The notes under the pieces: model-generated
Databases searched by the model: none
What the model saw: the letters and a program-made list of their open reading frames with translations, nothing else
Told to the model about the DNA's origin: nothing
Origin: Gemmatimonadota bacterium
GTDB lineage: Bacteria; Gemmatimonadota; Gemmatimonadetes; Longimicrobiales; Gaopeijiaceae
Length of the DNA stretch: 59,946 nt
Reading direction: 5' to 3'
Assembly (NCBI GenBank): GCA_003248075.1
Contig: QJYK01000218.1
Location: forward strand, 1 to 59,946
Program-made: the position numbers and the translations under genes
In this document: piece by piece, positions 5,428-39,652 of the stretch
Layout of the letters: every line of letters starts with the position of its first letter
Position numbering within the stretch: the stretch's first letter is position 1

Positions 5428-5762
5428 GACTCCTCCAGGAGGGCGCGCAGGCGGTCCTCGACCCCGTCGGCCATCGCCGCCACCTGCCCGTACGCGCGGG
5501 CCAGGGTCACCTCGCCGGCGGGCAGAAGTCGGTAGTGTTTGCGCCGTCGACCGCCGCGCTCCGGTGTGGCGTCACCCGTGTACGACGCCACGAGCCCGCG
5601 GTCCCGAAGCCGCTCCATGATGGTGTAGACGGCTCCCGGGAGGACATTGCGGCCCGTGCGCTCCTCCAGGTCGTCGCGGAGCTCCATCCCGGCAGCGTCG
5701 CCACCCGCCCGCAGAAGCCCGAGGAGGAGGAGCTGCTCCAGCTCGCCGAGTGATCGTCCCAT
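5424..5762 (-). CDS. PadR-family transcriptional regulator
   Basis: This 112-residue winged-helix protein begins MGRSLGELEQLLLLGLLR and continues with AGMELRDDLEERTGRNVLPGAVYTIMERL and a GGRRRKHYRLLPAG wing, the standard PadR signature (helix-turn-helix, then the R-K-Y-Y/H-x-LT/LP strand), followed by a C-terminal dimer helix. It is the first gene of a two-gene operon with the ADOP permease. Such PadR-permease pairs usually autoregulate and respond to small hydrophobic compounds; the ligand here is unknown. Confidence 0.92.
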   Translation of the reverse strand: MGRSLGELEQLLLLGLLRAGGDAAGMELRDDLEERTGRNVLPGAVYTIMERLRDRGLVASYTGDATPERGGRRRKHYRLLPAGEVTLARAYGQVAAMADGVEDRLRALLEES

Positions 5763-6015
5763 CGTCCGCCTCCCATCCGGAGCCCGACCCGGGCGCCGAG
5801 AGCGGCGCCGGCCATCAAAACCAACTTTGTCGATATTGTTAGCGTGTCAAGAGGAGCGGGGCTCCAGCTCGGCTTCGCGACCTGTTTCTGTGGCCCGCGC
5901 CGAGCTCCCCGCCGACGTCCGCGCTCGAGAGCACCGATTGACCCGCCGGTCCGACCGGGCGTACGCTGACTCGACCGCAGGCGAAGTCCGAAATCTGGAC
6001 ACGGGAAGGCCGGCG
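5763..6015. promoter_or_regulatory. Divergent promoter region between padR and the GH127 gene
   Basis: This 253-bp spacer carries an AT-richer patch at 5817-5850. On the minus strand a perfect TTGACA lies at 5850-5845, a credible -35 for padR, but the sequence 16-18 bases downstream (AAAGTT/AAGTTG) is a poor -10. The patch may also hold the PadR operator, although I see no clean dyad. On the plus strand GGGAAGG at 6003-6009 is a good ribosome binding site for the glycosidase gene. Confidence 0.35.
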
Positions 6016-8418
6016 ATGCGCGACGGGACGAACGAATCGAACATGAACCGGCGCGAGGCGATCAGCGCGATCGGCGGGACGTTTGCGGCCGTGGTCGTGA
6101 TGCCTTCGTTCGTCGAGTTGGCGTCCGGCGTCGGTGGGGGGGACCCGACCGTCCGTGCGGTGATGGAACTGGCCGCCGTCGCCGGGCCCGACCGCGTCGT
6201 GATCCGGCCGGGCAGGACGTACCTGAATGCCTGGGCAGGCCAAGGCGAGCCGCCCCGCCGCGTTCGCGGCCGCCGTGGCGAGCCCGAGCCACCGCCTCCC
6301 GTGCCCGGCCTGCCACCGGCCGTCCATTGGGCACGCGCGTCGGGGCCCGGCACGGTCGAATTCTCCGATCCCGGTGCCCTCATGACCACGGCGACCTTCT
6401 CCGCCCCGGGAACCTACGTGCTCGAGCTGATGGCTCGCTCGGGCGACGCCGAGACCTCCTCCACACTCAGCGTCATCGTCGAGCCGCCACCGCCGGAGAC
6501 CGGTCTCGAACCGGTCGACGTTGCGAGGTACCGCCTCGACAGTCGCCTCTGGGATGCGCGGACGAAGTCACTGATCGTCAACTGGATTCCACACTGCATC
6601 GAGCAGCTCGAGCGCACGGACCTCGAGCAAGGGGCGGGTGGGCTGGACAACTTCGACGAAGCAGCGCGTGCGCTGGCCGGGCTGCCGCACGGCGCCCACA
6701 AGGGCTACGTGTTTTCGAACGCGTACGTCTGCAACGCGGTCGAGGCCATGTGCATCGCGAACATGGTCGACGCGAAGGGTGATCCTGAGATCCTGGCGGC
6801 GCAGTCGGCGATGCGCGCGACGCTCGACGACTGGATCCCCCGGATCCTCGCCGCGCAGCATCCGGATGGCTACTTGCAGACCGCCTTCACGCTGCGCGAT
6901 CCGGGGCGTTGGGCGGAACGGTGGTCGGCCCAGGGCCGCAGCAACCATGAGGGGTACGTCGCCGGCTACTTCCTGGAGGCCGCGATCGCGCACTACAGGA
7001 TGACGGACGGCCGGGACCGGCGCCTCTTCAACGCAGCCCGCGAGCTCGCCGATCTGTGGTACGACAACATCGGTCCGCCGCCGAAGCAGGAGTGGTTCGA
7101 CGGCCATCAGGAGATGGAGCAGGCGTTGGTGCGGTGGGGCAGGTTCATCGACCGGGTCGAAGGTGCAGGCAGCGGCAGTAGGTACGTCGACCTGGCGAAG
7201 TTCCTACTCGACTGCCGTCGTGACGGCTACGAGTACGTCCAGAGTCATCTGCCCGTCGTGCAGCAGTACGAGGCGGTCGGTCACGCGGTGCGCGCCGTCT
7301 ACAACTACTCGGCCATGGTGGACATCGCGCTGGCGACCCGCGACGTCGACTACCTGGGCGCCGTGCGGTCGATCCAGGACAGCATCGTCAACCGCAAGTA
7401 CTACATCACGGGCGGCGTCGGCAGTGGTGAGTCGTCGGAAGGGTTCGGTCCCGACTACTCGCTGCGCAACAACTCCTACTGTGAATCCTGCTCGAGCTGC
7501 GGCGAGATCATGTTCCAGGCGAAGATGGGCCGCCTATACGGCGATGCCCGCTTCGCGGATCTGCTCGAGGAGACGCTCTACAACGGGCTGCTGGGCGCGA
7601 CCGACCTCGAGGGCCGCAACTTCCACTACACGAATCCGCTCGACGGCCGCGCCCGCCGCACTCCGTGGCACAACGTGCCCTGCTGTCCGAGCAACATCTC
7701 CAGAACCCTGCTCAGCCTTCCGCGTTGGATGTATTCGCGGTCGAGCGATGCGATCGCCGTCAACCTCTTCATCGGCAGCACGGTGACGGTACCGGACGTG
7801 GCCGGCACGGACGTCGAGGTCGTGCAGAGGACCGAGTACCCGTGGGACGGCCGCATCGCGATCACGCTGCGGCCGCTTGCGCGCCGTACCTTCAGTCTGC
7901 TGATCCGGGTGCCGGACCGGGGCGTGAGTCCCCTGTATTCCAGCCGACCGGACACGAACGGAATACGGGGAATTCGTCTCAACGGCAGCACGATCGAGCC
8001 CTCCATCGAGCGCGGATACGCGGTGATCACCCGCGTCTGGGCGCCAGGAGACAAGGTCGAGCTCGAGCTGCCGATGCTCGTTCAGCGGATCCGCGCCGAC
8101 GAGCGGATCGAGGCCGACCGCGGCCGTGTCGCCCTGCGCTACGGGCCGCTCGTCTACAACATCGAGCAGACGGATCAGGACATCACGCAGGCCCTGGGTC
8201 CTGACGCCGGACTCGCAGCCGAGTGGCGGGAGGACCTTCTCGAAGGCGTGATGACGATCACGGGCAGCTTCGCGAACGGTGCACCCCTGCTGGCGGTTCC
8301 CAACTACGCGCGTCAGAACCGGCTGCCACCTCCACCTCCACCGCGTGAGCCCGCGGCCGATGACGCGCGACCGCCCGCGCCGCCACCGAACTCGATCGTC
8401 TGGATCAGCGAGGCCTGA
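6016..8418 (+). CDS. Secreted GH127 (DUF1680) glycoside hydrolase, beta-L-arabinofuranosidase-like
   Basis: An 800-residue protein. A twin-arginine-like leader (MNRREAISAIGGTFAAVVV, starting at residue 10) is followed by a PKD/Ig-like domain (about 45-155) and an alpha/alpha-barrel GH127 domain. The family's catalytic and zinc residues can be placed: Glu475 in SSEGF as candidate acid/base, Glu490 and Cys492 in CESC, and the Cys556-Cys557 pair in VPCCPSN; in the characterised enzyme the equivalent pair supplies the nucleophile and zinc ligands. The tail is proline-rich (RLPPPPPPREP). The start at 6016 is chosen for its GGGAAGG site six bases upstream; ATG at 6043 is an alternative. It probably removes arabinofuranose or a related sugar from plant or glycoprotein glycans outside the cytoplasm. 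Exact specificity is unknown because the family is broad. Confidence 0.88.
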   Translation: MRDGTNESNMNRREAISAIGGTFAAVVVMPSFVELASGVGGGDPTVRAVMELAAVAGPDRVVIRPGRTYLNAWAGQGEPPRRVRGRRGEPEPPPPVPGLPPAVHWARASGPGTVEFSDPGALMTTATFSAPGTYVLELMARSGDAETSSTLSVIVEPPPPETGLEPVDVARYRLDSRLWDARTKSLIVNWIPHCIEQLERTDLEQGAGGLDNFDEAARALAGLPHGAHKGYVFSNAYVCNAVEAMCIANMVDAKGDPEILAAQSAMRATLDDWIPRILAAQHPDGYLQTAFTLRDPGRWAERWSAQGRSNHEGYVAGYFLEAAIAHYRMTDGRDRRLFNAARELADLWYDNIGPPPKQEWFDGHQEMEQALVRWGRFIDRVEGAGSGSRYVDLAKFLLDCRRDGYEYVQSHLPVVQQYEAVGHAVRAVYNYSAMVDIALATRDVDYLGAVRSIQDSIVNRKYYITGGVGSGESSEGFGPDYSLRNNSYCESCSSCGEIMFQAKMGRLYGDARFADLLEETLYNGLLGATDLEGRNFHYTNPLDGRARRTPWHNVPCCPSNISRTLLSLPRWMYSRSSDAIAVNLFIGSTVTVPDVAGTDVEVVQRTEYPWDGRIAITLRPLARRTFSLLIRVPDRGVSPLYSSRPDTNGIRGIRLNGSTIEPSIERGYAVITRVWAPGDKVELELPMLVQRIRADERIEADRGRVALRYGPLVYNIEQTDQDITQALGPDAGLAAEWREDLLEGVMTITGSFANGAPLLAVPNYARQNRLPPPPPPREPAADDARPPAPPPNSIVWISEA

Positions 8419-8467
8419 GCCGAGCGCTAGACATGACGACCGCCTACGATCCGAGGAGAGGGGTCTC

Positions 8468-9793
8468 GTGAGCTCTTCTTCGCTTTCGGCCCGCGGGGCG
8501 CGAGCTGCCGCGACGCCGATGCGCATCGACCACGCGCCGTTCCGCGACGCGATGGCGGATCGCTATCACCCCACGCACAACCCGAGCGGCGCCCTCCCCC
8601 TCAACATCGCGGAGAATCGCCTGTCGTGGCCGCTGCTCCGGTCGAGGCTCGAGGAGGTCATGGCTGCGGGCGAGGTGCCGGACTGGGTGCCCAAGTACGC
8701 GTCCCACAGGGGCGCGGCTCCATTCCGCGTCGCGGCCGCTTCGTTCCTCTCCGAGCACCTGACCCGGTGCCCCATCAGCCCGGACTCCCTCGGTGTCTCC
8801 GCCGGCGCGACGAGCGTGATCGAGATGACCGCCCACCTCCTCGCCGACGCCGGCGACGTAGCGGTGATCCCAGCGCCGTGCTACCCGGTCTACCGTCAGG
8901 ACATCGGCAACATGGCGGGCGTCGAGCGCTACGACCTCGTGACCTACCACGAGCTGAGCGAGATCGCGCGCGGGCCCACGCTCTCGATCGGACATCTGGA
9001 ACGAGCGCGACGCGACATCGAGGCGTCGGGCCGCCGTTTTCGCATGCTCGTCCTGACCACGCCCGACAACCCGACCGGGGCGATCTACCCGGCCCCGCTT
9101 CTCGAGGAGATCGCGGACTGGTGCATGGCTCGTGGAATCCACCTGGTGGTCAACGAGCTGTATGGGCTCTCGCTCATCGACACGTCCCATCCGGCGATCC
9201 GACAGGACTACCACGAGGACGTGTCATTCGTCTCGTTCGCGCGTCTGATGGCGGATCGGCGAAGCGACTATCTGCACCTCTGGTACGCCGTCTCGAAAGA
9301 TCTCGGGATCTCGGGCTTTCGCGTAGGGATGCTCCATTCCCACAACGAAGCCCTGCTGCAAGCGTACGAAAACGTCAACTTGTCGCACACGGCGTCGAAC
9401 CTCACCCAATGGCTACTCCGCGCTGTCCTCACCGACTCCGCGTTCATGACGGCGTACCTGCGGGAGAGCCAGATGAGGTTGACCGAGTCCTACGCCCTGG
9501 TGGTCGAGGGGCTGCGGACGCTGGGTGTGCCGTACGTGCCGAGCCGAGGAAGCCTCTTCGTGTGGATCGACCTCTCGGAGCTCCTCGACGAGGACTCGGA
9601 AGCGGCCGAGCTCTCGCTATGGATGGACCTGTACCGATCCGCGCGGGTGCTGCTCACCCCGGGCGTCGGCTTCGGCCACACCAAGCGCGGATGCTTCCGC
9701 GTCGTCTATCCGTCGGTCACCCGCGACGAGCTCGAGGTGGCTGTTGCCCGCCTCTCATCTTGGGTCCAGGACCGGCGGGATACGACCGCGTGA
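8468..9793 (+). CDS. PLP-dependent aminotransferase-fold enzyme, ACC-synthase-like
   Basis: 441 residues, starting at GTG after a strong GAGGAGAGGGG site. It carries a fold-type I core: NPTG (Asn201), the Schiff-base lysine in VSKDLGISGFRVG (Lys277) and the distal arginine region near residue 285. The SKDLG-x-x-GFRVG motif and the following helix are closest to 1-aminocyclopropane-1-carboxylate synthases and related plant/fungal-type aminotransferases. The residue that normally bonds the pyridine nitrogen (Asp in DEIY) is Asn here (NELY, Asn229), which would weaken or change the chemistry. The gene is transcribed with the GH127 gene, 49 bp downstream of it, and its end overlaps the convergent nitrilase gene by 39 bp. 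The substrate is not predictable. Confidence 0.85.
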   Translation: MSSSSLSARGARAAATPMRIDHAPFRDAMADRYHPTHNPSGALPLNIAENRLSWPLLRSRLEEVMAAGEVPDWVPKYASHRGAAPFRVAAASFLSEHLTRCPISPDSLGVSAGATSVIEMTAHLLADAGDVAVIPAPCYPVYRQDIGNMAGVERYDLVTYHELSEIARGPTLSIGHLERARRDIEASGRRFRMLVLTTPDNPTGAIYPAPLLEEIADWCMARGIHLVVNELYGLSLIDTSHPAIRQDYHEDVSFVSFARLMADRRSDYLHLWYAVSKDLGISGFRVGMLHSHNEALLQAYENVNLSHTASNLTQWLLRAVLTDSAFMTAYLRESQMRLTESYALVVEGLRTLGVPYVPSRGSLFVWIDLSELLDEDSEAAELSLWMDLYRSARVLLTPGVGFGHTKRGCFRVVYPSVTRDELEVAVARLSSWVQDRRDTTA

Positions 9794-11275
9794 GCGTTCT
9801 CTCCATTCGCGAGAACCTCTGCGCACCGCCACGCCAACCGCGAGCGCGCAAAAGAGCAGGGCGACGATCGGCAGCACCTCCCCCGTCCGGGCATACAGGG
9901 TCGGCACGCGTTGAGCCGGGACCGCCGCGATCAGGACACCGTCCCCCACATTATCGGCTCCGAGCGCGGCGAGCAGCCGTCCGTATTGATCGGTCGCGAT
10001 CGACGTCGCCGCGCGTACGGGCCGGACCATCGGCAGGCCCACCGCGACCGCGTTCATGAGGGCCATTCGTCCGTGCCCGGGATCGATTCCGCGCCAGTCG
10101 GACGACGGTATCAGGGCGATGTCCCCTCCGTCTCGCGCATTGTCCCGGGCGATCGCCGGGAAGCCGTAGTCGTAGCAGATGGCCCCGGTGTAACCCACGC
10201 CGTCGAGCACCACCACACGGGCGTGTCGTGTGCCGGGTGTCTCGGGATCGACCGGCACGGGGTGCCTCTTGATGTACTCGTCGGCCAGCGTCCCGTCGGG
10301 AAGGTAGAGGCGGTACTTGTTCATGTAATGGAAGGGCTGCATCGATTCGACCGCCGCGTAAGCCATGAGCAGCAGCACCCCGCGCTCCTCTGCGAACGCG
10401 CGCCCGCGCTCGGTGAGAGAACGCTCCCCTTCAACCGGAACGAGCGTGGCGATCTCCGGCCACACCACGACCTCGGCCCCGAGTTCGGCCGCGTGCTCGC
10501 TCCTGGCGAACAGCTCGTCGTCCAGCGGCCGCAGCGTATCGATGTTCTCGAAGGCGGTGAAGAACTCCCGGTGGGTGACGGGGGACACGACTTCACCGAC
10601 ACGTACCAGCGGTCCCGGGGCCGGTGTGGACAGCCGCAGTTCTCCGTACACGAGCGCGCCTGCGAGGGCGACGAGGAACACCGCGAGGTCGCCGCGCACG
10701 CTCCTGGCGCCATAGGTCCACATGGCGGCGGCCAGCCCAGAGCCCAGCGCCACGAGGAACGTGACGCCTCCGACGCCCGTCAGGGCCGCGAGCTGCACGA
10801 GCTGCAGGTTGTCGAGCTGCGTATGCGCGAGGACTCCCCAGCTGCTGCCCGGCGTGAAGGTGTACTGGATCCACCCCAGCGCCGTGGCGGCCGAGGCGAA
10901 CGTGTAGACCCCCCATCGAACGCCGACCCGGCGATGCACCAACCCGGCGACGGAGAGCGCGACGAAGTAGGAGACTGCCAACGGCGCTGCGAAGAAGGGC
11001 ACGGGCCCCCAGGGGATCTCCCACGAGTTCATCTTGCTCACTGTGGCGACGAACGCGACCACGAGCGTCGCGAAGAGCGCGAGGTGGCGCCTGAGCGTTC
11101 CGCGCGCGCAGATGAAGACGAGGAAGGGAGCGAACACCACCCACCCCAGTGGGGCGAGGGAGTCTCGCATGAAGGTCATGAAGACGAGGACGCTACCGAT
11201 TCCCAGGAGGGTGGCCGGCGAGGTCGAACGGCCCGAGTTGGCGTCCGCGTCCAGGTGTCGCGCTCTCGATGCCAT
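9755..11275 (-). CDS. Apolipoprotein N-acyltransferase-like membrane nitrilase
   Basis: 506 residues: about six N-terminal membrane helices, a carbon-nitrogen hydrolase (nitrilase) domain from about residue 225, and one C-terminal helix (EVLPIVALLFCALAVGVAV). This is the layout of Lnt, which acylates the N-terminal cysteine of lipoproteins at the periplasmic face. The triad is present: Glu274 (VWPE), Lys336 (EYIKRH) and Cys367 (AICYDYGFP). The active-site surroundings differ from proteobacterial Lnt, so this could be a paralogue with another acyl acceptor. The window encodes many lipoproteins that would need such an enzyme. The start at 11275 is the first ATG before the hydrophobic region; an upstream ATG would add an arginine- and proline-rich stretch that looks non-coding. 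Confidence 0.78.
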   Translation of the reverse strand: MASRARHLDADANSGRSTSPATLLGIGSVLVFMTFMRDSLAPLGWVVFAPFLVFICARGTLRRHLALFATLVVAFVATVSKMNSWEIPWGPVPFFAAPLAVSYFVALSVAGLVHRRVGVRWGVYTFASAATALGWIQYTFTPGSSWGVLAHTQLDNLQLVQLAALTGVGGVTFLVALGSGLAAAMWTYGARSVRGDLAVFLVALAGALVYGELRLSTPAPGPLVRVGEVVSPVTHREFFTAFENIDTLRPLDDELFARSEHAAELGAEVVVWPEIATLVPVEGERSLTERGRAFAEERGVLLLMAYAAVESMQPFHYMNKYRLYLPDGTLADEYIKRHPVPVDPETPGTRHARVVVLDGVGYTGAICYDYGFPAIARDNARDGGDIALIPSSDWRGIDPGHGRMALMNAVAVGLPMVRPVRAATSIATDQYGRLLAALGADNVGDGVLIAAVPAQRVPTLYARTGEVLPIVALLFCALAVGVAVRRGSREWRERSRGRIPPVLDPR

Positions 11276-27934: not shown

Positions 27935-29347
27935 TCATCCGGGTGCCTCCTCGATCTCGAGGCTGACCCGGAATTCGGTGCGTCCCGGACGGGACTCGAC
28001 GCCGATGTCCCCGCCGTAACCGCGGACGAGGCGCCGTGTCAGGTCGAGTCCGAGACCGGTGCCCTGGCCCGGGGGCTTCGTGGTGAAGAACGGGTCCCAG
28101 ATCCGCGGGAGGACGTCCTCGGGGATTCCGCCGCCGTCGTCGGAGACCGACACCACCACCCGGTCGTGCTCGTGCCGGGCCTCGATCTGGACGTGGCCGG
28201 ACTGGGGAATCGCGTCGAGCGCGTTGTCGACCAGGTTCAGCCAGACCTGGTTGAGCTCGGCGCCCGACGCGCGCACCTTCGGCAAGCCCGGCTCGAAGGC
28301 GAGCGAGATCGAGGCGCCCTTGGCCTTGGCTGCGGCGGCGAGCACGCGAACCGTATCACGCAGGCCGGGCTCGACGTCCACCGCCTCGGGCCCGGACCGG
28401 CTGTCCATGTAGGTAAACCGCTTGATGGCGGCGACCAGCTCATGGATCCGGGACGCGGCGTTCTCGACGTCGGTGGCGAGGGAGAAGATGTTGCAGCCGG
28501 CGGCCACCCAACGGAGGGCGGCGTCGAGTGCCGGCTGCGGAAGGCCCTCGGCGAGCACGTCCAGGTCTTCGAGCGTGACCGCCGTGTCGGCCAACGGAGC
28601 CGCGTGTCGCTCGCTCTGACCGCGCCGTCGGAGCCACTCGGCGATGTCGTCTTCGCGCGACGCCTGCTCGAGGGCCGAGAGCACGTCACCCATGGGCTTG
28701 CGGTAGCAGGCGTTCCGGATGGCATCGATGCGGGTGTGCTGGGCTTCCGTGAGCCCAGCGGCGCCGAGGGCGCGGGCGGCCGAGTCGGCCTCCCCGAGTC
28801 CTTCGAGGAGCAGCCGGGCTCCGCGTGCGGCCGCCGACGCCGGGTTGTTGAGCTCGTGCGCGAGCCCCGCGGCCAGCCTCCCCAGCGACAGCATCTTCTC
28901 GTCCTGGAGGTCGCTGGCGTTGAAGTTTCGCGCGCGGTCCAGCATGAGGTGAACGGTATACGCCGTGAAGGTCGGACACCGATAGACCATCTCGGGAAAG
29001 TGGCCCACATCGATGGCCAGGAGCACCGAGGGCTCCTCGGCGACGTTGTCCCCCGGTGGAGCCCGCATGCGCGAGTACGGGAGCATCCCCGTCACCTCAC
29101 CCTTACCCCAACCCATGACACGCCGTGGGCCTGCGCCGCGGTCGACACGGACTCCGATATGGCCTTCGAGAATCACGAACAGGTTCTCGACCGGTCTGCC
29201 CTTGGGCGCCACCAGGTCTCCCGCGCCTCGGCTCTGGACCACACCGTGCTCGACGAGCCAGGCCAGCTCCTCGCGCGGGAGACCCGCGAGGTTGGGAAGC
29301 GTCTGAAGCTGCGCGAGGAGGTCGTCGCGGTCGATCGCGAGTGGCAT
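27935..29347 (-). CDS. Soluble sensor histidine kinase with N-terminal cyclic-nucleotide-binding-like domain
   Basis: 470 residues, no membrane helix. Residues 1-140 form a CRP-type cNMP-binding domain ([17 protein letters not shown]), though the phosphate-binding cassette is not well conserved, so a ligand other than cAMP is possible. The phosphoacceptor is His164 in [15 protein letters not shown]. The ATPase domain has an N-box (NLVDNALDA), [13 protein letters not shown] and GQGTGLGL. About 150 residues of unassigned helical sequence separate the H-box from the ATPase domain. There is no response regulator next door; the rhodanese follows directly. The start MPLAIDRDD is preferred over an upstream ATG at 29392. 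Confidence 0.87.
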
Positions 29348-29392
29348 GCGTTGGGGTCGGTGGGCTGGTCGGGGAGGGGAGGAACGATACAA

Positions 29393-29417
29393 GATGCCCG
29401 GGAAAGCCCCGGGCGTC
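29393..29417. terminator. Strong stem-loop between the usher and histidine-kinase genes
   Basis: GATGCCCGGG (29393-29402) pairs with CCCGGGCGTC (29408-29417) around AAAGC: nine Watson-Crick pairs and one G-U. On the minus strand it falls about 100 bases after the usher stop and 46 bases before the kinase start, so it may separate the fimbrial operon from the kinase operon or act in the kinase leader. A U-run is lacking. Confidence 0.45.
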
Positions 29418-29518: not shown

Positions 29519-32137
29519 TCAGCGCCGACCCCGCGACGTCACGCGGAGGACGATGGGGTCGACCGCAGCGGTGGCCGCGCCCGACCCCACCTCCAGGGCC
29601 ACTTCGACCTTCTCCGGTATGAGCCCGGACTGGTCCAGGTAGCCCGCCGCGAAACGCAGGACGTAGCTCCCTGGCCGGACCCCTGCCTCGTAGAACGCAC
29701 CGTCGGAGAACGTCCGGATCGGTCTCACCTGGCCCGTGCGTGTGTCCACCAGCTCGAGGTGTGCATAGGCGAGCGGACTGGTGGCGCCTCCGTCGACGCG
29801 GAGAACCATGCCCGAGATCTCGCGCGACGGGGACACGGGGACGTTGACACGTCGAAACGAGGCTGGAGGAACCGTGACCCGGACCGCGTTGCGTGCCGGT
29901 ACCAGCGTGGGATCATCGATCGACGTCGAGTCGGCCCAGATCTCCACGGGCTCGAAGGGCACGAGGTCCCAGGATGTATGTCGGCCCCGGGCGTCGGTGG
30001 TGACGGCCCTATCGCCGACCACCAGACGCACGCCGCCGAGCCCCTTCTCACCGGGGTCGAGGTCGCCGTTGCCGTTCTCGTCGACGAAGACGTAGCCCGA
30101 GATGCCACCTCGCTCGAGCCCGGGGCCGGGCGCCAGGCTGAGCTGGGATGTCGCCTCGTTCCAGTGGACGGTGCCCTGGCTGAACTGGGTCAGCTGAGCT
30201 GGCGCGCCGTCGCGCGCCATGAGCTGGGTGACGTTGCGAAGCTGCGGCAGGTACGATGAAAGGCTCACGGTGAAGGCCGTACCCAGCGTCCGCTGCCAGG
30301 ACGCTCCCACCTCGAGGCGTACGCCCTGCGCGAGCTGATAGGCCAGATGCCCCCGTGCCCGCTCCACCGCAGCAGCGTCCAGCACCTCCAATTCGGCACG
30401 GACCAGGAGGCTCTTTCGACCCGGCAATCGGAGGAGCCCGCTCAACGCGGCGAATTGGTAGTCGTCCACGGCGCGCGCACCGGCGTCGGCGGTGAGGGTC
30501 TCGCGTCGTAGCCCCGACTCGATGCCGAGGTTGCCGAAGGGGATCGTCAGGGACGCTTGGGCCCGGGTGTCCGCGGTCTCCTGGAATACCTGTCGGAGGA
30601 GCGAGGCGCGCACGAATAGCCGGTTGTGGCCGGGCAGGGGCCGAACGAACAGGTCGGTCTCCGTGGTGGACCTCCGCCGGGCATCGTGAAGGACGGGATC
30701 CTCGAGCGACGTCGAAAACGCCGTGTGGGCACCCCTCAGCCGAATCCTGGGCGAGGGTGCAAAGGTGGCACCGGCCCGGAGGAATCCGGCTTGGAGCGCC
30801 TCCATGGACACTTCGAGGGACTGTCCGAGCATCCCGGTGACGCCCGCGTACGGCTGCGCCAGCGAGGACAGCGAGTCGCGGACGAAGGCCTCGGCCCCGG
30901 CACGGACGCTCCACCGGTTGCTCAGGCCGTAGCGCAGGTCCAGGTTGCCGCTTCCCGCGCAGTCCGCGCGTCGACACAGGCCCCCGCTCAGCCCCCATTC
31001 GAAGCGGCCGCCGGGGAGCCGATCGCCCCCGAGCAGGAGCAGGCGGTCCGTCGTGACGACCTCGCCGTGCGGGCCGAACGCGACGACTTGGACCGCGTTC
31101 TCGCCGTACCGGAGCGGGATGTCCAGGGCGAACGCGCCCTGCTCGTCCGCCCGGAGGAGGTCCAAGGTTCGTCCGGATTGCCGGAGCTCTACCTCCCAGC
31201 CGGGTCCGACCCGACCGCTGAAGGCGTCCGTGCCGAAGTAGCTTCCGCGGAGATAGGGGGCGTTGGTCAGGTAGAAGCCGCGCACGTCGCGGAGGCGCGG
31301 GCCGGTGGTGAAGCCGTCGCCTAGGCGCATCTGCGTGATCCAGCGAGTGTCATGGAACACCGCCTGGTACGTGGCGTCCACCCGGTGGGCGCCCTGGGAC
31401 ACCGGCCCCAGCGATCGGGACGTGACGCGCAGGCCTCCCTCGAGGACCCGGGCGGCGACTCCGAGAGAGTAGGCGACGGAGCCTCGCGGGTCGTCCGCGT
31501 CGGACGACAGTCCCCAATCGAGGACGGCGCCGCCCAGAGGGGAGGATGCCGGATCCAGCAACGGAGGGGCGGCCCCCAGCCCCGCCTCTCGTCTCAGCGC
31601 CTCCCATCGGGCCTCCCGCGCCAGCCTGCGACCGATGGGCAGGGCCTCCGGGTTCGTGACGATCGCGGTCAGGGACACCCAGTCGGTCTGGATGGTCAGG
31701 CTCAGGAGTCGTTCGAGAATCGGCGTTGCGACGTAGATGTCACCTCCGCCCTCCCCTGTGATCCATCCGTCGGGGACCGCGACCGCCTTCCCGTCGACGC
31801 TGGCGGTGCCCGGGACCGCGTCGATCCTCACGACGCGGTTCCCCGGGTACAGGGTCGCCACGAGGGCCCCGTTCGGCTCTCGGGCGTGCTCGACCTCGGC
31901 GATCTCGAAGAGCTCGATCGCGGGAAGAAGCGCGACCGCACCGTCCGAGAAGGCGCGGAGGGTGTGATTGCTGAAACGCCCGATCCGGAGCTCGAGAAGG
32001 ATCTCCTCGAACCCCGTCGCTGCGTCGACAGGTGCCTCCGCGGCAAGCGCGAACGGTCCAGTGGCCTCCTGAGCCGAGAAGGACGCAGGCGCGGCCAGCG
32101 ACACCAGTAGCAGGAGTCCGGGCCGGGCCGGGATCAC
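29519..32137 (-). CDS. Outer-membrane usher-like protein with C-terminal SdrD/carboxypeptidase-regulatory-like domains
   Basis: 872 residues. The signal peptide (GLLLLVSLAAPASFSAQ) is followed by an N-terminal domain (GFEEILLELRIGRFSNHTL) and a long beta-rich region with alternating aromatic strands. It includes RGFYLTNAPYLRGSYFGTDAF and GENAVQVVAFGPHGEVV, resembling the barrel and plug of alternative chaperone-usher ushers. The C-terminus has an SdrD-like segment with a calcium-binding DENGNGDLDPGEKG loop and a carboxypeptidase-regulatory-like Ig fold. It is encoded last in a four-gene operon with a PapD-like chaperone (4-bp overlap) and two pilin-like genes, which strongly supports an usher role: secreting and polymerising fimbrial subunits. 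Direct similarity to FimD is weak. Confidence 0.75.
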   Translation of the reverse strand: MIPARPGLLLLVSLAAPASFSAQEATGPFALAAEAPVDAATGFEEILLELRIGRFSNHTLRAFSDGAVALLPAIELFEIAEVEHAREPNGALVATLYPGNRVVRIDAVPGTASVDGKAVAVPDGWITGEGGGDIYVATPILERLLSLTIQTDWVSLTAIVTNPEALPIGRRLAREARWEALRREAGLGAAPPLLDPASSPLGGAVLDWGLSSDADDPRGSVAYSLGVAARVLEGGLRVTSRSLGPVSQGAHRVDATYQAVFHDTRWITQMRLGDGFTTGPRLRDVRGFYLTNAPYLRGSYFGTDAFSGRVGPGWEVELRQSGRTLDLLRADEQGAFALDIPLRYGENAVQVVAFGPHGEVVTTDRLLLLGGDRLPGGRFEWGLSGGLCRRADCAGSGNLDLRYGLSNRWSVRAGAEAFVRDSLSSLAQPYAGVTGMLGQSLEVSMEALQAGFLRAGATFAPSPRIRLRGAHTAFSTSLEDPVLHDARRRSTTETDLFVRPLPGHNRLFVRASLLRQVFQETADTRAQASLTIPFGNLGIESGLRRETLTADAGARAVDDYQFAALSGLLRLPGRKSLLVRAELEVLDAAAVERARGHLAYQLAQGVRLEVGASWQRTLGTAFTVSLSSYLPQLRNVTQLMARDGAPAQLTQFSQGTVHWNEATSQLSLAPGPGLERGGISGYVFVDENGNGDLDPGEKGLGGVRLVVGDRAVTTDARGRHTSWDLVPFEPVEIWADSTSIDDPTLVPARNAVRVTVPPASFRRVNVPVSPSREISGMVLRVDGGATSPLAYAHLELVDTRTGQVRPIRTFSDGAFYEAGVRPGSYVLRFAAGYLDQSGLIPEKVEVALEVGSGAATAAVDPIVLRVTSRGRR

Positions 32138-32976
32138 GGCCTCACGACCTCCTCGGACAGCTCCAGCGGGATGGAAGGAAGGCGGTCGGCCTGGGCGACG
32201 TCGTCGCGCTCGGTGCTCAGCCGCATGAAGAGGCGGTAGGTCCCCGTGGGCACATCGCTCACGGCGTACGCATAGCGGCGGTGGTACTCGCGGTACACGG
32301 CCACCTGCTCGGTCCAGGAACGGAGCTCACCGCCGTTCACGTCCCGAAGAGAAAACTCGAGCCGGCCGATGTAGGCCCCCTCGTCCTCGCGGACGAAGTC
32401 GGGGCGTACGACAAGGCTGTCGCCCTCTATCCTGGGCCGAAAGTCGTCGACACGGAGGCCGGTTCGGACCGCCCCCTTTCGGTACGAAAGCGCGATGATC
32501 GTGCGGACCTCGAGGTCGAGGCCCACCTGGACACCGCTCGAATCGGGAACCCCGGCCACGGGGAGCCGCTGCCCTCTGCTCGTGAACACGAGTCGCGCCC
32601 AGTACTCACCGTCCGAGGTGCCGGGCGGGGCTTTGGCGAGCAACCGGACGACCCGGCGCTGCTCCGGCGGCACGACGAGCCTGCGGGGGAGCACCTGGAT
32701 CCAGCCGGCGGCGGAACGGGGGTCCTGGCTCAGCGAGTCGACGTGCAGGAGGACCCGACCCTCTTCGTCGGTGGTCGGGTAGCCGAAGACGGCTTCGACG
32801 GTGACCTCCTCCGGCGTCGCGGACGGATTGTACAGGGTGATGGCCTCGGCCGGTCGATCGTCGCTCAAATAGATGGCCGTCGGAGCGACGGCGATGGCCA
32901 TCACTTCCGATGCGAGCGACGCCACCAGGAAGAGGAGCGTCAGAGGGAGGGTCCGTCGGGGTGGGGGAATCCTCAT
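32134..32976 (-). CDS. Periplasmic PapD-like fimbrial chaperone
   Basis: 280 residues with a signal peptide (LTLLFLVASLASEVMA). Two Ig-like domains are visible: AIAVAPTAIYLSDDRPAEAITLYNPS begins the first, and WIQVLPRRLVVPPEQRRVVRLLAK carries the basic strand that in PapD-type chaperones donates residues to unfolded subunits. The second domain ends near PLELSEEVVRP. In classical chaperones an Arg and a Lys in the cleft anchor the subunit's C-terminus; suitable basic residues are present but I cannot assign them with certainty. Operon position, between pilin-like genes and the usher, fixes the role. Confidence 0.82.
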   Translation of the reverse strand: MRIPPPRRTLPLTLLFLVASLASEVMAIAVAPTAIYLSDDRPAEAITLYNPSATPEEVTVEAVFGYPTTDEEGRVLLHVDSLSQDPRSAAGWIQVLPRRLVVPPEQRRVVRLLAKAPPGTSDGEYWARLVFTSRGQRLPVAGVPDSSGVQVGLDLEVRTIIALSYRKGAVRTGLRVDDFRPRIEGDSLVVRPDFVREDEGAYIGRLEFSLRDVNGGELRSWTEQVAVYREYHRRYAYAVSDVPTGTYRLFMRLSTERDDVAQADRLPSIPLELSEEVVRP

Positions 32977-32979
32977 GGG

Positions 32980-33543
32980 TCAATTGCCGAGGTAGGAGAT
33001 GGTGAGGGTGATCGTTGCCGCATAGGCGCCGACCGCTACATGACCCGGGGGCGTGGCCGTACCCCCGAGAAAGACGGCTCCCCGACCGTTGCCTGGGAGT
33101 CGGAGGGGCTGGGGCACCGCCGGGTCGAAGGCCACCTGGCTGCCGATGGAGCCGTCCGGGGAGTAGCCCGCGGTCCCGGGTCCGAAGGACAGGGGGACGG
33201 TGGAGCCGCCGGGACCCACGAGGTCCGACGGGAGCAGGAGCTCCACCAGGACCTCGGTGAGTCGTTCGCCCCGGATGTCGAATTGCCCGGAGTTGACCGG
33301 GTCGGTCCGGAGAATGGTGGTGGGAATCCCGCCGAGCAGATCGCCGAAGTTGAGCGACTGCACCGGGCGGGCTCGGAGAGGTCGCCCCTGTGCGGCCGCG
33401 GCGTTCGCGTCCACGAGCAACAGCAGAAGAAGCGCAGCGAGGAGGGTACATACCGTCCGAAACTCGATCGGCCGGCGGCCGGCGCCCACGAGCTCGAAGC
33501 CCGTGGGGACCAGCCCCCGGCCGATCACGCCGAGCGAGATCAC
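32980..33543 (-). CDS. DUF4402-like fimbrial subunit, second pilin of the operon
   Basis: 187 residues from GTG 33543, supported by AGGGGGG five bases upstream. The export signal is internal to a long N-terminus (CTLLAALLLLLLVDANAAAAQ, about residues 32-52). The mature part has the DUF4402 pattern: RPVQSLNFGDLLGG near the start, a central SGQFDIRGERLTEVLVEL strand pair, and a C-terminal GAVFLGGTATPP then YAATITLTISYLGN. The last strand, ending in an aromatic residue close to the C-terminus, fits a chaperone-usher subunit. Compared with the first pilin its signal region is unusually long, so it may be a tip or anchor subunit. Confidence 0.72.
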   Translation of the reverse strand: MISLGVIGRGLVPTGFELVGAGRRPIEFRTVCTLLAALLLLLLVDANAAAAQGRPLRARPVQSLNFGDLLGGIPTTILRTDPVNSGQFDIRGERLTEVLVELLLPSDLVGPGGSTVPLSFGPGTAGYSPDGSIGSQVAFDPAVPQPLRLPGNGRGAVFLGGTATPPGHVAVGAYAATITLTISYLGN

Positions 33544-33579
33544 CGCGGCCCCCCTTGACGGCCCGGGAGCCGGGCCGGT

Positions 33580-34071
33580 TCAGCTCCCCGTATAGGCCAC
33601 CGTCAGCGAGACTGTCCCGCTGTAAGCTCCGGCGGCCTGCGTGGGCGTGGGGGACACCGTCCCGCCGATGAAGACGAGGAGACCACCGGAAACGAGGTTG
33701 GTGGTCGCGACCGAGCCCGGGTCGAAGGTCGAGTCGACCCCGGCGGCTCCGTAGCCTGCGCTGCCGGCCCCGAACGAGATCGGCAGGTTGTTCGGGCCTG
33801 ACGCCAGGTTGGCGGGGAGCGTCCCGAAGTCCAACGTCACTTCGAGCGTGCTGTAGCCGGCGACCGTGAACGAGCCCGCGTTGGCGTCGTCCGGGAGGAG
33901 GGTCGAGGGCACGCCCGGAATCACGTCACCGAAGTCGAGCACCTGGGTACCGGTGACCGTGAGCGGCGCCAGCACGTTCGCGGTGGCCTGGATGTTCGCG
34001 CTGACTTGCGCGGACAGGACACCGGGAAGTGCCAGGGCGATCGCAGCGGCCACGAGCGAGCGATGGAGCAT
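33580..34071 (-). CDS. DUF4402-like major fimbrial subunit
   Basis: 163 residues with a clean signal peptide (MLHRSLVAAAIALALPGVLSAQ) after a strong AAGGAAGG ribosome binding site. The mature sequence follows the same plan as the next gene: LTVTGTQVLDFGDVIPG, a central SFTVAGYSTLEVTLDFG, then GGLLVFIGGTVSP and a final YSGTVSLTVAYTGS. It is poor in charged residues and lacks cysteines, as expected for an immunoglobulin-like pilin completed by strand donation. First place in the operon and the best translation signal suggest it is the main structural subunit. Confidence 0.78.
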   Translation of the reverse strand: MLHRSLVAAAIALALPGVLSAQVSANIQATANVLAPLTVTGTQVLDFGDVIPGVPSTLLPDDANAGSFTVAGYSTLEVTLDFGTLPANLASGPNNLPISFGAGSAGYGAAGVDSTFDPGSVATTNLVSGGLLVFIGGTVSPTPTQAAGAYSGTVSLTVAYTGS

Positions 34072-34592
34072 GGGTTCCTTCCTTTGGTTCCGTTCGAGTG
34101 GTCGTGGGCGACCCCACATCGAGCTCGTTCCGTTCGGGCCTCTGTGGCCTCCTCTCGCATCAGCGGCCAGGTAGGGGCAAGGCAGGTGCCAACCGGCCCG
34201 AATAAGCCGGATTTCGGGGCGGCCTCGCTCCGGTCAGGCGCCCGCATCCCGAGCCACTTCGGAGCGCCGCGGACGGGAACGCAGTCCGGATGACTTCGTA
34301 ATAAACGCTTTATTCACAATGCTTTATACATCGTCATGGGCGGCAGGATGGCTTGGACAGGACGAGGGGAGCCCGCGCCCAGCCGGCGGAGGCCCTCCGG
34401 CGGGAGTCTGGTCAATACATTTGTTTACCGCCTTCGGGCCCCGGCTCGCCGCGGGACCTTTCAAATTGCAAGACCTGTTGCGATTTCATGGCCGCGGGCA
34501 ACCCTCCTCCCGCGTCGGGCCGGCCCGGATCGGGGACGTCTCGAGCGTGCGCACTCGCGACCCCGGCTTGACCCGCCTCATATTGCCGGTCC
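34072..34592. promoter_or_regulatory. Divergent intergenic region with an AT-rich dyad upstream of the fimbrial operon
   Basis: This 521-bp spacer separates the fimbrial operon (leftward) from the sulfatase gene (rightward) and holds no gene I support. Its notable part is AT-rich, 34299-34330: AATAAA-CGC-TTTATT (34300-34314) is a perfect dyad, and GCTTTAT occurs twice 14 bp apart (34307 and 34321), with TATACA at 34325-34330 as a possible -10. A second AT-richer patch lies near 34411-34432. These stand out sharply from the GC-rich surroundings and probably carry the promoter and operator for one or both directions. Confidence 0.45.

Positions 34593-37159: not shown

Positions 37160-39652
<2,493 letters not shown>

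Follow-up and report, generated by a model that had tools for sequence, protein, structure and literature searches.

The locus described here, a tight four-gene operon at positions 29519-34071 on the minus strand of a 59,946-nucleotide stretch of DNA from a soil-type Gemmatimonadota bacterium (contig QJYK01000218.1; the whole stretch is referred to below as the window), raises the question of whether its genes make up a chaperone-usher system and, if they do, of where that system stands among the known ones. Chaperone-usher pili are among the best-studied bacterial adhesion fibres. Their known range is essentially the Proteobacteria, with the archaic class extending to Cyanobacteria and Deinococcus-Thermus (PMC4654587). 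An earlier reading of the window made from its letters alone (the sequence-only reading) had proposed a divergent chaperone-usher system, and the profile-profile matches of the usher and the chaperone, together with a conserved gene neighbourhood, now bear this out. It is highly probable that the operon builds a surface fibre via the chaperone-usher pathway, and our verdict is that it represents a new, distinct branch of that known machine.

The genes are ordered subunit 1, subunit 2, chaperone and usher, the first three being separated by 36 bp and 3 bp and the last two overlapping by 4 bp, and all of the open reading frames are found where the sequence-only reading had placed them:

33580-34071, minus strand: subunit 1, DUF4402 type, with the donor-strand extension SANIQATANVLAP (Pfam DUF4402 just below the cut-off, E 3.8e-5; homologues in phylum operons; long N-terminal extension)
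32980-33543, minus strand: subunit 2, DUF4402-like, with the mature N-terminus QGRPLRARPVQSLNFG lacking a donor strand (DUF4402 just below the cut-off, E 0.0044; shortest N-terminus at this operon position)
32134-32976, minus strand: periplasmic chaperone, PapD-like and non-classical (hhalign matches to archaic and classical chaperones; R128 and Y228 are predicted carboxylate anchors)
29519-32137, minus strand: outer-membrane usher, 872 amino acids (hhalign matches to archaic and K-12 ushers; PF00577 in 3/23 relatives)

Subunit 1 starts at an ATG at 34071, with GGAAGGA upstream and an alternative in-frame ATG at 34119; the start of subunit 2 is uncertain and may be the GTG at 33543, 33528 or 33489. 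In the source genome, of 5.6 Mb in 344 contigs, the chaperone gene and the full-length usher gene each occur once.

The identity of the large protein is the point on which the assignment turns. The protein might instead be some other outer-membrane or surface protein, of the TonB-dependent type or an adhesin resembling the microbial surface components recognizing adhesive matrix molecules (MSCRAMM-like), a reading that is hardly credible on the evidence below. It draws on the only Pfam matches to the window protein, which are CarboxypepD_reg (above the cut-off) and SdrD_B (below it), both in the C-terminus, on the database name “carboxypeptidase regulatory-like”, and on profile searches against the sequences of solved structures, which left usher and chaperone unnamed and gave mainly SdrD- and NOMO-like matches to the C-terminal domains. 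Where plain hidden Markov model (HMM) searches left these two proteins unnamed, profile-profile comparison was needed. Compared in this way (hhalign), the usher family aligns with eight archaic ushers over the full length, from the N-terminal domain through the second of the two usher C-terminal domains, CTD1 and CTD2 (99.4%, E 1.4e-21), and with eight ushers of E. coli K-12 (97.3%, E 1.7e-11), the decoys, which were reversed and column-shuffled profiles, reaching at most 0.4%. The large protein is therefore identified as an usher, because its alignments to archaic and K-12 ushers are accompanied by clean decoys, and the constancy of the neighbouring chaperone and subunit genes likewise speaks against an unrelated surface protein. 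A TonB-dependent or Bam-type barrel was tried and rejected, since FhuA scores 0.3% and BamA 0.1% against the usher profile as single sequences; a lone FimD scores only 2.8% against it, so single sequences are weak controls and it is the decoys that carry weight.

The regions of the usher assigned from these comparisons are the following:

31658-32068, minus strand: N-terminal periplasmic domain, about residues 24-160 (the archaic-usher alignment begins at profile column 29; boundary approximate)
31007-31258, minus strand: region aligned to the usher plug, about residues 294-377, including GWEVELRQSGRTLDLLRADEQGAFALDIPLRYGENAVQVVAFGPHGE (best-conserved stretch; aligned to about residues 285-370 of the FimD precursor)
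30044-30082, minus strand: calcium-type loop DENGNGDLDPGEK where CTD1 begins, residues 686-698 (pattern count; SdrD_B in 22/23 relatives)
29825-30109, minus strand: CTD1, about residues 677-771 (aligned to FimD CTD1)
29522-29824, minus strand: CTD2, transthyretin-like / CarboxypepD_reg, about residues 772-872 (Pfam CarboxypepD_reg at 774-837, E 1.4e-8; partly aligned to FimD CTD2; within the range of the archaic-usher alignment)

The FimD plug limits used for the plug assignment are literature values, and a 24-strand barrel with a plug would follow from homology and from the alignment to FimD. The sequence-only reading had treated a carboxypeptidase-regulatory-like C-terminus as an addition beyond FimD and PapC; it is not an addition, because the C-terminal stretch of about 200 residues corresponds to CTD1 and CTD2, with which it aligns in both E. 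coli and archaic ushers. The sole special part of the C-terminal region is a short insert where CTD1 begins, the SdrD-like calcium loop to which the same reading had correctly drawn attention (DENGNGDLDPGE). Its strict form, DxNxNGxxDxGE, occurs in 19 of the 23 phylum relatives and in 9 of 11 ushers across phyla, as against 0/8 archaic and 0/8 classical ushers by pattern count. A calcium role for the loop is conjectured from its sequence.

Two further features of the usher family may be recorded here. Just past the plug region, cysteines at residues 388 and 393 (window about 30959-30976) are invariant in 23/23 phylum ushers and possibly form a disulphide; the same two cysteines are missing from the Zixibacteria and proteobacterial ushers. 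One family member matches Cu_amine_oxidN1 (copper amine oxidase N-terminal domain) at E 1.5e-4, and the N-terminal domain of these ushers may be mis-annotated under that name.

The chaperone family aligns to archaic chaperones at 98.0% and to ten K-12 chaperones at 95.6% (hhalign; decoys below 1%), and PapD_N is matched by 5 of 20 chaperone relatives in a plain HMM search. In the archaic chaperone CsuC the carboxylate anchor consists of Arg89, Tyr196 and Arg174, the F1 arginine having a role in anchoring (PMC4654587). In the family studied here R128, which lies within the motif GEYWAR, is invariant in the phylum set; its counterpart in the alignments is the F1 arginine in archaic chaperones and Arg89 in EcpB. 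The conserved Y228 aligns with the CsuC tyrosine (Tyr196) that contacts the subunit C-terminus. Neither of the classical anchors, R8 and K112, is conserved, and the window chaperone has alanine at the aligned positions.

That the DUF4402 proteins are the subunits of the system, as had been proposed from the letters alone, is upheld by comparison with the subunits of known systems. The DUF4402 set aligns with the archaic spore coat U subunits (91.2%, E 1e-6) over a range that takes in both the N-terminal extension and the last strand; it is not aligned with FimA-type subunits (1.1%; decoys below 1%). Compared with three spore coat U domains only it scored 14.9%, the higher value being reached with the fuller set. 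All of the subunits end at, or shortly after, the conserved last strand. N-terminal length was taken as the distance between the LxFG motif and the point where the hydrophobic core of the signal ends. Its median is 15 residues for the subunit whose gene immediately precedes that of the chaperone, versus 27 for the others. Among 20 operons in which two or more subunits could be measured, the subunit at this position is shortest in 19; the exception is the Zixibacteria operon, where a different single gene is the short one. The extra residues of the long type (NSASITATATV) show strictly alternating hydrophobicity (p = 0.007), as would be expected of a donor strand. This strand of about 12 residues is present in subunit 1, which is predicted to be the polymerizing shaft subunit, and is missing from subunit 2, which suggests, because a subunit without a donor strand would have nothing to donate, that subunit 2 is a dedicated tip or chain-starting subunit. 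Shaft and tip roles had been put forward earlier on the ground that the two subunits differ mainly in signal length. That ground does not hold, since the length hinges on the uncertain GTG start of subunit 2, the consistent difference being the donor-strand extension; the roles themselves still follow, now from the absence of the donor strand in subunit 2. In one related locus (L045, 4648-6814) there are four subunit genes, three of them near-copies with the donor strand and one without it directly before the chaperone.

A fibre is not the only structure that such subunits could form. The Myxococcus spore coat is made by a chaperone-usher system, and the same chemistry might here produce a non-fibrous surface coat or capsule-like layer instead of an adhesive pilus. 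Consistent with a coat, no lectin-like or two-domain adhesin was found in the operons inspected, all of whose subunits are single-domain and of similar size; the consistent occurrence of a subunit without a donor strand, on the other hand, points to a definite tip of the kind that linear fibres have, and we regard the coat as a doubtful alternative that nonetheless deserves attention.

The case for the fibre also rests on how widely the gene set is kept together. A search of 200 phylum genomes with the large protein recovered full-length relatives at about 25-44% identity; the usher family profile matches 51 of these genomes at E < 1e-10, and 39 are counted once matches confined to the C-terminal domains are removed. 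The chaperone and DUF4402-like subunits adjoin the large gene in all 20 of the phylum neighbourhoods fetched, so the gene set is not a product of chance. Many members of one family have a third subunit gene between the chaperone and the usher. The same operon, with four subunits, a chaperone and the large protein, is present in a Zixibacteria genome, and it is also carried by alpha-, beta- and gammaproteobacterial plasmids (Polaromonas, Sphingopyxis, Pseudoalteromonas), so that the system is not the non-proteobacterial peculiarity for which it had first been taken. On the plasmids the genes are annotated as DUF4402, as chaperone (or hypothetical) and, for the usher, as “carboxypeptidase regulatory-like”. 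A scan of genome contigs gave one usable relative only, that from Zixibacteria, and three scans of viral contigs gave none. On the Polaromonas conjugative plasmid (L057, 90-7693) IS6 family transposases lie on both sides of the operon, which suggests that it moved as one unit. In Pseudoalteromonas (L059, 1676-7616) the DUF4402 operon is bracketed immediately on both sides by genes for SPOR-domain proteins, of which the one after it overlaps the usher gene by 4 bp.

In the window itself the operon is followed by a candidate terminator:

29396-29414, minus strand: terminator-like stem-loop GCCCGGG-GCTTT-CCCGGGC, 3' of the usher gene and before the next gene (from pattern matching only; 3 such sites, where shuffled sequence gives a mean of 1.4)

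Beyond this hairpin, 126 bp downstream of the usher and on the same strand, is a histidine kinase gene (27935-29392). Kinases related to it and a Ser/Thr kinase resembling that at window 37160-39652 flank the operon in four related loci (L033-L036); in the closest relatives (L031 and L032) the same kinases were not found beside the operon. The histidine kinase was considered as an operon member and rejected, because the terminator-like site intervenes and the closest relatives have no nearby match.

From these components we infer strand exchange, a tip role, calcium binding and a purpose in adhesion or biofilm formation, and assembly would proceed as follows. The subunits would reach the periplasm by means of their signal peptides, as immunoglobulin (Ig)-like domains without a last strand, and the chaperone would bind each of them and lend its G1 strand, with R128 (strand F1) and Y228 (domain 2) gripping the subunit C-terminus as in archaic chaperones. 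The usher, predicted to form a plugged barrel in the outer membrane and to carry CTD1, CTD2 and an N-terminal domain that receives the subunits, would then join the subunits by donor-strand exchange. The alternating N-terminal strand of subunit 1 (xSAxIxATAxV) would complete the previous subunit, so that subunit 1 could polymerize into a shaft; subunit 2, which could accept a strand and not donate one, would enter first and cap the tip. The calcium-type loop of CTD1 may stabilize the usher or make assembly calcium-dependent.

Several results weigh against this account and must be set beside it. In the profile search that the sequence-only reading had named as a check, made as plain HMM searches of Pfam and NCBIfam, the window usher was matched by no usher model and the window chaperone by no chaperone model; on the favourable side, DUF4402 was recovered in both subunits, below the cut-off, and PF00577 was matched weakly by 3 of the 23 usher family members. 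The AlphaFold2 model of the usher, built from 2 sequences, has a predicted local distance difference test score (pLDDT) of 29 and is too poor to interpret, and that of subunit 1, from 6 sequences, is unusable at 46, so that neither the barrel and plug nor the incomplete Ig fold was seen directly. In the chaperone, an equivalent of Arg174 of CsuC is not conserved in the family, and proteobacterial members have the F1 arginine shifted by two residues towards the N-terminus. The absence of a two-domain adhesin, noted above, counts here as well.

If the operon belongs to the chaperone-usher pathway, it may simply be archaic (sigma), of the Csu type, with no separate branch to be distinguished. Of the families tested, the archaic ones come closest to all three of its components; its carboxylate anchor is non-classical, and one genome of the same family carries a genuine archaic system. 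The last of these (L070, in G069, 5607-10280) comprises genes for a spore coat U subunit, a chaperone and an usher that passes the cut-off of PF00577, followed by one for a long spore coat U protein; because this operon lies in another genome of the same family, both kinds of system are present in the phylum. PF00577 matches 3 of the 200 phylum genomes, above the cut-off in one, which holds a true archaic system, and PF05229, the spore coat U model, passes its cut-off in 2 of the 200 and is not found in the source genome. What tells against an archaic assignment is the placing of the ushers. In a tree of 28 ushers the 11 DUF4402-linked ones form one group with support of 100/99, apart from the archaic (97/95) and classical (99/99) groups and from EcpC, a long lone branch; this is one unrooted tree with some long branches, which makes it less certain how deep the split lies than that the grouping holds. 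The match between archaic and classical ushers (E 8e-56), moreover, is far stronger than that of either to the DUF4402-linked ushers (1e-21 and 2e-11), the window subunits are unmatched by the spore coat U HMM, and no two-domain tip adhesin accompanies them. We accordingly judge a purely archaic assignment improbable.

Observed directly were the gene content and its conservation, the homology of the three component types to archaic parts, the distribution of the donor strand and the separateness of the usher branch. We think it rather probable, with some reserve, that the DUF4402-linked branch is a fourth major chaperone-usher class beside the classical, alternative and archaic ones, with DUF4402 fibres, a single-domain tip subunit without a donor strand and a calcium-binding loop in the first usher C-terminal domain, occurring in Gemmatimonadota-like bacteria, Zixibacteria and Proteobacteria and missed through the “carboxypeptidase-regulatory-like” annotation of its usher. 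If the branch is real, about 39 of the 200 sampled phylum genomes make such fibres where the standard usher model matches 3, DUF4402 gains a likely function as the pilin of a chaperone-usher fibre, a sequence rule separates shaft from tip subunits, and usher evolution acquires a deep outside group. The machine is known; its DUF4402-linked branch is undescribed in the open-access literature, in which we found no mention of DUF4402 or PF14352 (subscription papers and preprints lay outside the scope, and earlier notice is possible) and nothing on chaperone-usher systems together with Gemmatimonadota.

Among known systems the nearest is the archaic Csu type (CsuA/B, CsuC, CsuD), which the operon resembles in its usher over the full length (99.4%), in its chaperone (98.0%), including two carboxylate-anchor residues, the arginine of F1 and the tyrosine of domain 2, and in its subunits (91.2%). 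It differs in that its subunits are of the DUF4402 family and those of the window escape PF05229, in that its ushers carry the calcium-type loop in CTD1 and fall outside the archaic group, and in that in most of the archaic operons fetched the usher is followed by a long spore coat U protein, where the present system has a single-domain subunit without a donor strand. With the classical FimC/FimD systems of E. coli K-12 it shares usher (97.3%) and chaperone (95.6%) matches and the same domain order, including plug, CTD1 and CTD2, but it lacks R8 and K112 and its subunits are not detectably related to FimA (1.1%). The alternative E. coli common pilus (EcpB/EcpC) is alike in having a non-classical chaperone with the F1 arginine (Arg89 of EcpB), but it gives weak single-sequence matches only (EcpB 24%, EcpC 0.9%), EcpC aligning weakly and in the C-terminal domains alone. 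The surface proteins with SdrD B-like and CarboxypepD_reg domains, finally, match locally the calcium-type loop and the transthyretin-like C-terminal domain, but the corresponding stretches here stand where ushers have CTD1 and CTD2, and are not an adhesin stalk.

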